Below, in pieces: positions 4,486 through 15,939 of a DNA stretch of 24,644 nucleotides. The stretch comes from a virus. The stretch lies in the IMG/VR virus record IMGVR_UViG_3300026519_000641, positions 1-24,644 of that record; one strand, written 5' to 3'. A program made the position numbers and the translations under genes. A model generated the notes under the pieces. That model saw only the letters and a program-made list of their open reading frames with translations. It did not search any database and was not told the origin of the DNA. Each line of letters begins with the position of its first letter. The first letter of the stretch is position 1.

Positions 4486-4760
4486 GCTGCAGCGCTTTCT
4501 TCCAGCAGGCGGGTAGCGGCTGTGATCCAGTTGGATACCGCGCTGTCGATGGTGGTGCCCCATGCTGTCGCGCCGTGGAGCGATATCTCGATCATGCTGT
4601 CGCACGGCTGTTCGGTGTCGCTGTTGAAAACGCTCATGGCGCCGCCGGAAAATGTGCCGCCGCTTTCCATGATCGCGCCCGCAATGGCGTCGGCGCGTTC
4701 TGTCGCGGAGAGGCAGCGCAGATAGGTCGTGAATGCTGAGAGTCTGGTTGCTTCTATCAT
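4482..4760 (-). CDS. Hypothetical early phage protein
   Basis: The 92-aa protein starts MIEATRLSAFTTYLRCLSAT and ends in an Ala-rich helix. Upstream of the ATG is GGAGAAAACAAA, a good ribosome binding site, and the ATG overlaps the TGA of the ParB-like gene. Small polar residues dominate the centre (ESGGTFSGGAMSVF). No family or motif recognised. Confidence 0.6.
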   Translation of the reverse strand: MIEATRLSAFTTYLRCLSATERADAIAGAIMESGGTFSGGAMSVFNSDTEQPCDSMIEISLHGATAWGTTIDSAVSNWITAATRLLEESAAA

Positions 4761-5611
4761 TTTGTTTTCTCCGGAATTTTATTCGGCAGTATCTTGTTCA
4801 GGGCCTTGACGAGCTGGCCCGTGAAGTGTGTTTTCTTGTTGCCGCCGATCAGCCGGACAAGTTCGCGGGCGCGGCTGTCGATCTGCTCGAAATCGATCAT
4901 CGCCAGAGCGGGTTTCAGGCTGGCCGGGTCGATACCGGCCCGCGCCGCGCGGCGGTATGCTTCGGCAACCCCGGTGACGTTGCTGGCGCTCAGCAGGTTT
5001 CTGGTATCCGGATGTGTGTCGGTCAGCATCTCGAGCACATGTTCGAGCCGGTCCGCCCCCATGTTTTTTGTGAGGGTCAGTAACGTGGTTATTGCCCGTG
5101 TGCGTCCCGGGCGGATCTCGCCGGTTTCGGCCTCGAGCTGTATGCCGAGCCTGTCGAGGATGCTCTGGACCGCCAGTGCGTCCGGTGCCCCGGCAACCAG
5201 TGCGGCGCGGTATTCATCCAGCGGGCCGACACGTGTGCGGTTCTTGTTGATGCCGACGAAAGCGTCGGCCTGTGCGATGTGGTCGCTGCTTCCAACCAGT
5301 GCGGGGACTTTCGGCAGTTGCAGGTGGATCGCGGCGATAGCGCGGTGCTGGCCGTCGATCACAGCGAAGTCCGTGCCGGACTTTGCCACGATCAGCGCGC
5401 CGAATTTCATCCAGTCGAATTGTCCGATGATTTTTTTGATTGTGCGCTGGCCGATGCGCGAGATCCCGCGCTGGTACGACGGGTCGAGCAGCAGATTATC
5501 CGTGTCGATCCACAGCAGGTCGGGGAGCGCCAGCCCTTCGGCGGCCGGCAGGCAGGTCGCCGAGAATTCGAGCAGGCTGGCGATCGGGGTGATTTTGGTC
5601 AGTTCCGGCAT
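4757..5611 (-). CDS. ParB-like nuclease-fold protein
   Basis: The 284-aa protein carries an N-terminal ParB/sulfiredoxin-type domain: LLDPSYQRGI (about 41-50), a helix, then VIDGQHRAIAAI (about 84-95), where the DGQHR signature corresponds to the nucleotide-binding G-x-x-R region of ParB N-domains. The remainder is helical without a clear ParB HTH, so a partition role is unlikely. Stand-alone phage members are variously assigned nuclease, CTPase or regulatory roles; none can be chosen here. The ATG at 5611 follows AAAGGAG and overlaps the upstream gene by 13 bases. It is the largest gene of the leftward operon. Confidence 0.8.
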   Translation of the reverse strand: MPELTKITPIASLLEFSATCLPAAEGLALPDLLWIDTDNLLLDPSYQRGISRIGQRTIKKIIGQFDWMKFGALIVAKSGTDFAVIDGQHRAIAAIHLQLPKVPALVGSSDHIAQADAFVGINKNRTRVGPLDEYRAALVAGAPDALAVQSILDRLGIQLEAETGEIRPGRTRAITTLLTLTKNMGADRLEHVLEMLTDTHPDTRNLLSASNVTGVAEAYRRAARAGIDPASLKPALAMIDFEQIDSRARELVRLIGGNKKTHFTGQLVKALNKILPNKIPEKTK

Positions 5612-6372: not shown

Positions 6373-6402
6373 TAGTTACTAATGGTAATGGTGACGTGTC
6401 AA
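6373..6402 (-). promoter_or_regulatory. Leftward early promoter (PL-like)
   Basis: On the minus strand TTGACA (6402-6397) is followed by an 18-bp spacer and TAACTA (6378-6373). The predicted start lies near 6366, leaving a leader of about 26 bases to the ATG at 6340. The rightward promoter at 8311-8340 has the same layout. Confidence 0.65.
6376..6388. promoter_or_regulatory. Repressor operator overlapping the leftward -10
   Basis: TTACTAATGGTAA is a 13-bp near-palindrome matching four other copies flanking the repressor cassette. It overlaps the -10 element of the leftward promoter, so binding would block polymerase. Confidence 0.7.
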
Positions 6403-6565: not shown

Positions 6566-6913
6566 TCAGGTGACGGGGGGATCCTTCCTGACCGGAAAGC
6601 GCGAAAGAAAATCGTCGTCAGCCAGTGTGCTGGATGACTGTGCGGGCGCGCCATTCCGGCGGTTGGCCGCCGGTGCGGTTGTTGTATCCTCCAGTGCGCG
6701 GGTAATCCGTTCGAGATACAGGTTGTTTTGAATGGTGATCGCCAGGATGCCGAAAACAACGATTGTCGCCAGCAGCCCACCGGCCGCTGCCAGCAGCCCC
6801 ATGACAGCACCGTCGGCGCCGGCAATCACGACCGCGCCGACGGCAGTGCTGATCAGGGCGGCAAGGATCAGGAGGGAAATGAGCGATTTGAATGCGTTGG
6901 CAATAAAATTCAT
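6566..6913 (-). CDS. Two-helix membrane protein in the repressor operon
   Basis: The 115-aa protein has two predicted membrane helices (about residues 10-31 and 36-61) rich in Ala, Gly and Leu, then a polar, probably cytoplasmic tail of about 50 residues rich in Ser, Thr and Ala. The ATG at 6913 follows GGAG and lies 13 bases after the stop of the second repressor, so it should be expressed in the lysogen together with the repressors. In known phages this position often holds exclusion genes (for example rexAB of lambda). A superinfection-exclusion or lysogenic-conversion role is inferred from position and topology only. Confidence 0.7.
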   Translation of the reverse strand: MNFIANAFKSLISLLILAALISTAVGAVVIAGADGAVMGLLAAAGGLLATIVVFGILAITIQNNLYLERITRALEDTTTAPAANRRNGAPAQSSSTLADDDFLSRFPVRKDPPVT

Positions 6914-6926
6914 CGGGGGCTCCGGT

Positions 6927-7526
6927 TTATAGTGTCTGTATGTCCTGTTGTGCGATGTGCCTACGCAAAGGGGCGGCCCACTTCAGGTGGACCGCGTATT
7001 CAGTCTGGTTCGAATTGTTGGCACTATGCAAGTCAAAAGTGTGCGGTTCGCGCCCCGGGCGTATATATTTCACCAGTGCGCGGCCGTCGGTGGTTTCGCA
7101 GATCCCGACATGGTTGATGGCATTTTCATCGACGCCGACAAAATGGCGGGTGAAAAACAGGATGTCGCCACTCTGGATGATCGGCGACATGGAGTCGCCC
7201 TGCACCTCGACCGCGACGATGCCGCTGGCGGGGAGGTCGTCGGGGCAGGCGACGTGATAGAGGCCGTCGCCCTTGGCGTAGGCGTCGACCAGCTCGACCG
7301 TTGCGCCAGCGCCAACGCGACCGGCAACAGCAACGGGGCGATCATTTGCATAAAGAGCGGCGACAGGCACATCGAGGACCGTTGCTATATCCTGAAGCAA
7401 GGCAGCGCTCGGTCGGCGCTTTCCGGTTTCTATCTGTGACAAATAGGGCTGACTGATGTCGATAGCATCGGCCAGATCGCGGGCCTTCATCCCAGCCTTT
7501 TTGCGAATTTCAGCAATTCTAAACAT
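6927..7526 (-). CDS. S24-family repressor 2 (HTH + autopeptidase)
   Basis: The 199-aa protein has an XRE-type HTH at residues 1-57 (ARDLADAIDISQPYLSQIET), a short hinge and a LexA/CI-type S24 peptidase. The presumed cleavage site is Ala68-Gly69 (VAGRVGAGA), Ser112 in GDSMSP is the nucleophile and Lys153 in RALVKYI the general base, so RecA-stimulated self-cleavage is expected. The C-terminal 138 residues are nearly identical to those of the upstream repressor, while the HTH differs. The ATG at 7526 begins the conserved HTH; a TTG at 7565 would add unrelated residues. It follows repressor 1 on the same strand. Confidence 0.9.
   Translation of the reverse strand: MFRIAEIRKKAGMKARDLADAIDISQPYLSQIETGKRRPSAALLQDIATVLDVPVAALYANDRPVAVAGRVGAGATVELVDAYAKGDGLYHVACPDDLPASGIVAVEVQGDSMSPIIQSGDILFFTRHFVGVDENAINHVGICETTDGRALVKYIRPGREPHTFDLHSANNSNQTEYAVHLKWAAPLRRHIAQQDIQTL
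6933..7340 (-). repeat. Direct repeat copy A: repressor peptidase domain
   Basis: This stretch aligns without gaps to 7632-8039 (constant offset 699 bases), with only scattered substitutions. Similarity stops at the hinge between the peptidase and HTH codons, and just past the stop codon at the other end. It records a recent duplication or gene conversion of the peptidase module alone. Confidence 0.85.
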
Positions 7527-7611
7527 GAGTTCTGTTTGGCAAAGGGAGTGATTCGGTGGCGGCAAGGGCGGTAATTACAGCAAGGGCGATCCAGATAATA
7601 AAGATAACCAT
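7519..7611 (-). CDS. Possible 30-aa hydrophobic peptide between the repressors
   Basis: The frame MVIFIIWIALAVITALAATE... fits between the two repressors: it starts 14 bases after the stop of repressor 1, and its stop overlaps the ATG of repressor 2. The first 18 residues could span the membrane. No convincing ribosome binding site precedes the ATG, so it may instead be an untranslated spacer or serve translational coupling. Confidence 0.35.
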   Translation of the reverse strand: MVIFIIWIALAVITALAATESLPLPNRTHV

Positions 7612-7625
7612 GTTGGCAGCCGTTG

Positions 7626-8234
7626 TTAGAGTCTCTGTATGTCCTGTTGCGAGATGTGCCTGCGCAGCGGGGCTGCCCATTTCAGGGGGACGGAGTATTC
7701 AGTCTGGTTCGAATTGTTGGCGCTATGCAAGTCAAAAGTGTGCGGTTCGCGCCCCGGGCGTATATATTTCACCAGTGCGCGGCCGTCGGCGGTTTCGCAG
7801 ATTCCTACACGGTTGATGGCATTTTCATCGATGCCGACAAAGTGGCGGGTGAAAAACAGGACGTCGCCATTCTGGATGATCGGGGACATGGAGTCGCCCT
7901 GCACCTCGACCGCGACGATACCGCTGGCGGGGAGGTCGTCGGGGCAGGCGACGTGATAGAGGCCGTCACCCTTGGCGTAGGCGTCGACCAGCTCGACCGT
8001 TGCGCCAGCGCCAACGCGACCGGCAACAGCAACCGGGCGGTTATCCGAAATGAGCGCATGCACAGGAACGTCTAAGGCACGCGCGATCTCTTCAAGCAGA
8101 GTCGTGCTGGGCTTTTTTTGGTTTGCCCCACGTTCCAACATAGAAATGTAGCCTGGGGTTTTGTCGATCATATCGGCTAGATCGGCAATCGTTAGGCCGC
8201 GTTGTTTGCGAAGTTCTCGAATTCTGAGTTTCAT
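7626..8234 (-). CDS. S24-family repressor 1 (HTH + autopeptidase)
   Basis: The 202-aa CI/LexA-like repressor has an XRE HTH at 1-60 (IADLADMIDKTPGYISMLER), a presumed cleavage site at Ala71-Gly72, nucleophile Ser115 in GDSMSP and Lys156 in RALVKYI. It is nearest the rightward operators, divergent from the Cro-like gene, as expected for the main lysogeny repressor. Its recognition helix (TPGYISMLE) resembles that of the Cro-like protein (SPSYLSLLE) more than that of repressor 2, suggesting a shared operator. I chose the ATG at 8234 because an upstream GTG at 8279 lies inside an operator site. No strong Shine-Dalgarno is visible. Confidence 0.9.
   Translation of the reverse strand: MKLRIRELRKQRGLTIADLADMIDKTPGYISMLERGANQKKPSTTLLEEIARALDVPVHALISDNRPVAVAGRVGAGATVELVDAYAKGDGLYHVACPDDLPASGIVAVEVQGDSMSPIIQNGDVLFFTRHFVGIDENAINRVGICETADGRALVKYIRPGREPHTFDLHSANNSNQTEYSVPLKWAAPLRRHISQQDIQRL
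7632..8039 (-). repeat. Direct repeat copy B: repressor peptidase domain
   Basis: This is the partner of 6933-7340, with the same length and no gaps. The encoded segments differ at 9 of about 138 residues by direct comparison. The first 60 codons of the two genes are clearly unlike. Confidence 0.85.
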
Positions 8235-8271: not shown

Positions 8272-8284
8272 TTACCCACGGTAA
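8272..8284. promoter_or_regulatory. Operator-like palindrome nearest repressor 1
   Basis: TTACCCACGGTAA keeps the outer TTAC/GTAA arms but a different centre from the other sites. It lies 17 bp centre-to-centre from the next site and just upstream of the repressor 1 gene, so it could serve autoregulation. Confidence 0.5.
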
Positions 8285-8310: not shown

Positions 8311-8340
8311 TTGACGGGAAATCCTTACCAATAGTAACTA
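8311..8340 (+). promoter_or_regulatory. Rightward early promoter (PR-like)
   Basis: TTGACG (8311-8316), an 18-bp spacer and TAACTA (8335-8340) mirror the leftward promoter exactly in spacing and -10. Seven bases past the -10 is the A of the ATG at 8347, so the transcript is predicted to be leaderless. Confidence 0.65.
8325..8337. promoter_or_regulatory. Repressor operator overlapping the rightward -10
   Basis: TTACCAATAGTAA is a 13-bp near-palindrome in the same position relative to the -10 as the site at 6376-6388. Occupancy would shut off the rightward early operon. Confidence 0.7.
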
Positions 8341-8346
8341 TTCGAT

Positions 8347-8547
8347 ATGTTGAAATCATATATCAAACGCACCGATTCATCTCGCCGCGATCTGTCGCGG
8401 AGACTTCGGATAAGTCCTTCATACTTATCGTTGTTGGAAAACGGGAAGAAGAAACCATCCCTCGACCTCGCTGTCCGCATCGAGCGCCTGACCGATGGTG
8501 CTGTTCCGGCCTCGAGCTGGGTAGAGCAGAGCGGGGAGGCGGCGTGA
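8347..8547 (+). CDS. Cro-like XRE repressor
   Basis: The 66-aa protein is a single XRE HTH domain (RRDLSRRLRISPSYLSLLENGKKKPS), the usual length for Cro-type phage repressors, without a peptidase domain. It is the first gene of the rightward operon, divergent from repressor 1, and should bind the same operators to favour lytic growth. There is no Shine-Dalgarno: the ATG falls at the predicted transcription start. Its stop overlaps the next ATG (TGATG). Confidence 0.85.
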   Translation: MLKSYIKRTDSSRRDLSRRLRISPSYLSLLENGKKKPSLDLAVRIERLTDGAVPASSWVEQSGEAA

Positions 8548-8633
8548 TGCGGGAATCCTCCTTTCAAGTCGATCCTGTCACAGCAGGATTTCCGGCACAC
8601 GGGAAAGCGGACGGGGGATTTGCCCATGCGTAA
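8547..8633 (+). CDS. Possible 28-aa peptide
   Basis: A frame of 28 codons starts within the Cro-like stop (TGATG) after GGGGAGG and overlaps the following gene by 8 bases. It fits the coupled layout of this operon, but its composition (SSFQVDPVTAGFPAHGKADG) gives no fold or function. It may be translated only to couple the next gene. Confidence 0.35.
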   Translation: MRESSFQVDPVTAGFPAHGKADGGFAHA

Positions 8634-9099
8634 CGTCCGCCCAGGCTCGATACAGGCCGCGATCCGCGAGGTTATCACCCGTGCCGGCGGGCTGGAGTGT
8701 GTCAGTGCCGATATCGGCGTGTCTGTCACGAACCTGTCCCGCGCGACCGCCTGCGACGATGATCGCCCCGGCGGTCTGGGGATCAACCATTTCGACCGGC
8801 TGGGCCGTATCGTTCCGGATGCGGTGGTGCCGCTGGCGCAGCATTTCGGGCACATGGCGGGCGGTGTTTTCCAGCCGCTGAAGGTCGACGGTGCGCTCGG
8901 GGCCGATATGAGCCAGCTGACGGCCGAGTTCGCCGATGTGCTGGCGGTCCATGCCGAGGCCATGTCGAGCCGGTCGAAGAATCCGGACGATTACACGGTC
9001 GAGGAGGCGCGGGCGGCGCTGAAGGAAATGGACGAGCTGATCGAGGTCGCCGCGCGGGTGCGCGGGTCACTGGTGCAGAAGGCGAGGGGGCGCGTATGA
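8626..9099 (+). CDS. CII-like phage regulatory protein
   Basis: The 157-aa protein begins MRNVRPGSIQAAIREVITRA and has an HTH-like segment (GGLECVSADIGVSVTNLSRA) followed by NHFDRLGRIVPDAVVPLAQHFGH. This order resembles the Phage_CP76/CII-type regulators, in which a poorly conserved HTH is followed by a conserved Leu-rich part. The last 50 residues form a charged helix. The ATG at 8626 follows GGGGGA; a TTG at 8620 is less likely. As second main gene of the rightward operon it is well placed to influence the lysis-lysogeny choice. Family assignment is tentative. Confidence 0.6.
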   Translation: MRNVRPGSIQAAIREVITRAGGLECVSADIGVSVTNLSRATACDDDRPGGLGINHFDRLGRIVPDAVVPLAQHFGHMAGGVFQPLKVDGALGADMSQLTAEFADVLAVHAEAMSSRSKNPDDYTVEEARAALKEMDELIEVAARVRGSLVQKARGRV

Positions 9100-15846: not shown

Positions 15847-15863
15847 TGGCCAATCCATTTATT

Positions 15864-15939
15864 GTCAGGGTGGAGCAGTCGGTAGCTCGCGTGGCTCATA
15901 ACCACGAGGTCGCAGGTTCGAGTCCTGCCCCTGCAACCA
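15864..15939 (+). tRNA. tRNA-Met(CAT), initiator-like
   Basis: The sequence folds as a tRNA: D-arm GAGC/GCTC, anticodon stem CGTGG/CCACG with loop CTCATAA (CAT), T-arm GCAGG-TTCGAGT-CCTGC and an encoded CCA end. Initiator traits are the A11:T24 D-stem pair and the lack of a 1:72 pair. The usual three G:C pairs in the anticodon stem are reduced to two, with T:A at the third. Acceptor position 2 also appears unpaired because of an extra T near the 5' end, so only five acceptor pairs form. It may be charged poorly or processed unusually. It lies after a terminator and before the late genes. Confidence 0.8.

Follow-up and report, generated by a model that had tools for sequence, protein, structure and literature searches.

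Tandem CI-type repressors with a nearly common S24 domain and different HTH domains in the immunity region of a lambda-like prophage

The window, the whole stretch of 24,644 nucleotides analysed here (IMG/VR virus record IMGVR_UViG_3300026519_000641), contains a lambda-like prophage in which an integrase gene (2197-1136) is followed by leftward early genes and an immunity region, and which also carries genes for SSB, primase/helicase, terminase, portal, head protease and major head protein. A ParB-like protein (phrog_1033) is encoded in the leftward early operon (4757-5611, minus strand), and a tRNA-Met (CAT) gene lies between the replication and head genes (15863-15939, plus strand). The immunity region holds two repressor genes in tandem, here called A and B, among the following features:

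6376-6388, unstranded: predicted operator, OL, TTACTAATGGTAA
6411-6423, unstranded: predicted operator, OL, TTACTAATAGTAA
6463-6487, minus strand: terminator-like hairpin of 10 pairs, after the 115-residue membrane-protein gene
6566-6913, minus strand: gene for a 115-residue membrane protein with no Pfam family, orthologue of 1277-1609 in the viral contig L003
7526-6927, minus strand: repressor A, 199 residues (HTH at residues 1-64, linker, S24 domain)
6927-7340, minus strand: S24 segment of A shared with B, equivalent to 7626-8039 in an ungapped alignment
7519-7611, minus strand: orfX', a 30-residue remnant of a 54-residue membrane gene, its end overlapping the start codon of A (ATGTTTAG)
8234-7626, minus strand: repressor B, 202 residues (HTH at residues 1-67, S24 domain), canonical CI by position
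8272-8284, unstranded: predicted operator, OR3-like, TTACCCACGGTAA
8289-8301, unstranded: predicted operator, OR2-like, TGACTAATGGTAA
8325-8337, unstranded: predicted operator, OR1-like, TTACCAATAGTAA, directly past a TTGACG hexamer at 8311
8347-8547, plus strand: Cro-like HTH protein, divergent from B
8620-9099, plus strand: CII-like activator (phrog_101)

Both repressor reading frames are open from ATG to TAA, and both products match Pfam HTH_3 (A 5e-16, B 1e-15) and Peptidase_S24 (A 7e-10, B 2e-9) above the cut-offs. Alignment of the two genes confirmed what the preliminary description had stated of their C-terminal parts, namely a gapless DNA alignment at an offset of 699 over the last ~138 codons with nine residue differences; the exact count is 9 of 137 residues plus one at the boundary, or 93% protein identity between the S24 domains, and the DNA copies differ at 25 of 411 nucleotides. 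Identity falls from 23-24 to at most 14 of 24 nucleotides at the linker before VAVAG, while the other edge of the homology is the stop codon. The same description called the first 60 residues clearly unlike, which holds in that the HTHs differ, though the wording is slightly strong for domains with 50% identity across 64 aligned residues and a two-residue indel, which lie closer to each other than to the remaining HTHs compared (25-43%). Third-position GC is about 0.50 in both HTH halves (7343-7526 and 8042-8234) against 0.73-0.74 in the S24 halves, as if the HTH segments had been drawn from another pool.

The Ala-Gly cleavage site and Ser/Lys dyad of the S24 domain, invariant among the aligned relatives, are present position for position in both proteins (Ala73-Gly74 and Ser112/Lys153 in A; Ala76-Gly77 and Ser115/Lys156 in B). 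An AlphaFold model was made of A only (mean pLDDT 83), in which residues ~63-194 match 3k2z (Z 12.0), 8gmu (Z 11.8) and 1jhe (Z 11.7); overall the C-domain resembles LexA and lambda CI structures, including RecA-bound ones, at Z 11-12 over ~114-123 residues with rmsd 2.4-3.0 Å, and the HTH separately matches HTH domains of the P22 C2, SinR and DdrO kind. By domains, by cleavage site and dyad and, for A, by fold, the two are LexA/CI-type S24 repressors with predicted autocleavage, and each gene looks functional. Since site and dyad are kept in both, SOS cleavage and hence joint inactivation of A and B is to be expected.

The surroundings of B are those of a lambda-type immunity region, with cI divergent from cro and repeated predicted operators both between these genes and at PL. 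A 13-bp operator with the consensus TTACYAWTRGTAA occurs in three copies between B and cro and in two at the left early promoter. At the 12-bit cut the operator matrix gives no strong match in the window other than these five, where shuffled sequence would yield 0.3; since the matrix was derived from the same five sites, their high scores arise partly by construction. In the whole host assembly there are three perfect operator matches, all inside this prophage, and none for a reversed control. Because these operators lie at OR beside B and at OL, B is positioned as the classical CI and would be the protein that binds them. A, in contrast, has no such adjacent operators of its own: no B-type site was found before it, the intergenic regions examined yielded no second repeated dyad that would fit it (a non-repeated motif could escape this search), and the only near-copies in the window of any part of the 34 nt upstream of A are two single-mismatch 12-mers. 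The pairing of recognition helices between CI and Cro was also considered as proof that B is the cognate repressor and was dropped, because B and its Cro share position 28, as do CI and Cro of L003, whereas those of the relative L073 do not. Relatives with other HTHs carry other sequences in the gap between cro and cI (L003 320-440; L073 3200-3310 and 4000-4080), and L073 has, by eye, related-looking TTCTCTGT sites at OR and at a left-operator position; the operators seem to vary in step with the HTH.

Behind B, the gene order can be read against that of L003, a viral contig with the same arrangement and a single repressor (80% identical to B in the S24 domain, 33-42% in the HTH), which is followed by an intact 54-aa orfX and then by the orthologue of the 115-aa membrane-protein gene. 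In the window, orfX' resembles L003 orfX over its first 18 codons only (12 of 18 residues identical), the similarity stopping where the leader and ORF of A start, so that A sits inside a broken orfX and is, relative to this single-repressor relative, an extra gene with a visible insertion breakpoint. Lying on the same strand downstream of B, with no operator site before it and no terminator-like hairpin found between the two genes, A is probably co-transcribed with B; besides the hairpin after the 115-aa gene, the minus-strand terminator-like hairpins are at 6242-6229 and at 8320-8306, the latter upstream of B.

The differences between the shared segments are unevenly spread. In the last 24 codons 12 of 72 nucleotides differ (dS 0.77), against 13 of 339 in the rest of the shared part (dS 0.10), a contrast significant by Fisher's test (p = 3e-4) and by a permuted single-breakpoint test (p = 0.002). 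Compared with L003, both parts have diverged to about the same degree, and a local mutation hot spot can therefore be discounted as the cause. Statistically, the part from the linker towards the C-terminus has been homogenised by recombination or gene conversion at least once since the copies diverged, which lends support to the earlier suggestion that conversion keeps the domain uniform. Of the 13 codons changed in the homogenised part, 8 carry synonymous changes, where 75% non-synonymous changes would be expected (p = 0.006); dN/dS between A and B is low (0.030/0.18), and polarising with L003 as outgroup assigns six residue changes to B and one to A. A has neither stop nor frameshift and shows no sign of decay.

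Among the relatives with a single copy, one S24 family is joined to varied HTHs (HTH identity 25-43%, S24 identity 43-84%), and exchange at the linker is thus customary in this repressor family. Since so many HTHs are paired with one S24 family, donors of other specificities are to be expected. A search of viral contigs with the HTH of A found no relative, phage records gave only weak HTH matches to it and no nucleotide relatives, and in 391 genomes of the order nothing exceeded 49% identity to this HTH except the window's own copies. A second repressor copy was likewise found at none of the 129 other loci with this S24 domain in viral contigs and genomes, a set that includes overlapping loci and loci with short flanks or contig ends; a second repressor whose C-terminus is unrelated would escape this search. 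In 12 other genomes of the genus the locus is absent altogether, and the pair is present in a single draft assembly of 333 contigs. No account of tandem CI genes with a common S24 domain turned up in the searchable literature, which largely lacks subscription papers. The pair is a real, rare and apparently new form of the lambda-type immunity region. The preliminary description had called two repressors in one switch uncommon and treated them as equal partners: the rarity agrees with the lack of a second pair in the 129 loci, but only B is at the switch, adjoining Cro and the OR and OL operators, while A is inserted behind it, and the equal partnership has to be given up.

These features can be brought together in a model in which B would act as a normal CI, holding OR and OL shut and opposed by Cro. 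Recombination would have placed an additional CI-type repressor, A, with another HTH, inside the downstream gene orfX, creating a lysogenic operon of B, orfX', A and the membrane protein. As A would belong to the same lysogenic operon as B, it would be expressed throughout the silent state of the prophage, and its specificity, judging from the HTH, would be unlike that of B. It could then silence early promoters in a related phage of different immunity and give the lysogen a second immunity; because no operator for A is recognised in the prophage, such a role in trans against a heteroimmune relative seems the simplest and likeliest. RecA should inactivate A and B together through their almost identical autocleaving domain, so that A would not block induction of the prophage itself. 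That A is a repressor of second specificity recombined into the lysogenic operon, where it broadens immunity, is a reading based on anatomy and evolution for which belief and doubt are evenly balanced; weighed against capture were the failure to find a phage with the HTH of A, the mutual nearness of the A and B HTHs (50%) and the single assembly. The fuller picture, in which two CI proteins of different specificities mix as AA, BB and AB dimers under one SOS trigger, widening immunity with inducibility kept, is unlikely to hold in all its parts.

The pair might instead have arisen by internal tandem duplication of cI, one HTH diverging while conversion kept the S24 halves alike, with A regulating within the prophage or the host. 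The two HTHs being nearest to each other among those compared, the residual DNA similarity beyond the linker (12-14 of 24 nt) and the tract-like homogenisation of the S24 part all suit such an origin, which is nonetheless somewhat unlikely: with the junction inside orfX and the homology ending at the stop codon, there is no sign of a second orfX or of any other duplicated flank, similarity breaks off at the linker as sharply as in single-copy relatives with exchanged HTHs, and the intergenic regions examined hold no second repeated dyad on which A could act. It is quite unlikely, too, that A is a recent functionless passenger or the pair an assembly mis-join of two related phages, even though the pair comes from one 333-contig draft assembly, the insertion broke orfX and no operator partner of A is recognised. 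A passenger would sit poorly with the absence of stops and frameshifts in A, with the predominance of synonymous changes in the homogenised part (8 of 13 changed codons, p 0.006) and with the greater change on B than on A, and a mis-join at a repeat with copies that differ at 25 of 411 nt and a 99-nt B-A spacer that is unique and within reach of one read.

Heterodimers of phage repressors have been engineered together with chimeric operators, and Hollis et al. reportedly made a 434/P22 repressor heterodimer in 1988. As in that case, two HTH specificities are combined here with compatible dimerisation domains, though the 434/P22 protein was engineered and A and B are known from sequence alone. 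With this precedent, dimerising S24 domains that are 93% identical and probable co-transcription, A/B heterodimers are plausible. That A and B work mainly as heterodimers, either with hybrid-operator specificity or with A titrating B and so tuning the switch, is very unlikely: the five predicted operators belong to a single type with no hybrid-looking site among them, and the last 24 residues, which by analogy with LexA would include interface strands, account for four of the nine residue differences.

The capture reading can also be set beside natural systems. B is like the S24 repressors lambda CI and P22 C2 in its HTH and S24 domains and its divergence from Cro, and its region like theirs in having three operators at OR, more at OL and CII downstream of Cro; A, too, combines these two domains. 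What differs is the tandem arrangement of CI-type genes with a nearly common S24 domain and the lack of recognised operators for A. P22 carries immC (C2) plus immI (Mnt/Arc/Ant) and so likewise unites two immunity functions in one prophage, but its second locus has no sequence relation to the first and lies elsewhere, whereas A is a sister of B with a common SOS-responsive domain. The nearest match in the literature is that of tandemly integrated prophages in M. abscessus, in which two repressors, unrelated in sequence, likewise lie close together, but belong to two prophages, whereas A and B belong to one prophage operon (PMC9934374). The question addressed is how temperate phages might widen their immunity while staying inducible, for which a stacked pair, if true, would offer a simple route in which a new DNA-reading domain is joined to the same sensor. 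Such a pair would also provide a parallel in nature to the engineered 434/P22 heterodimers, in a setting where related phages swap HTHs freely. The conserved 115-aa membrane-protein gene ends the probable lysogenic operon both in the window phage and in L003, and by its position could be a superinfection-exclusion gene.
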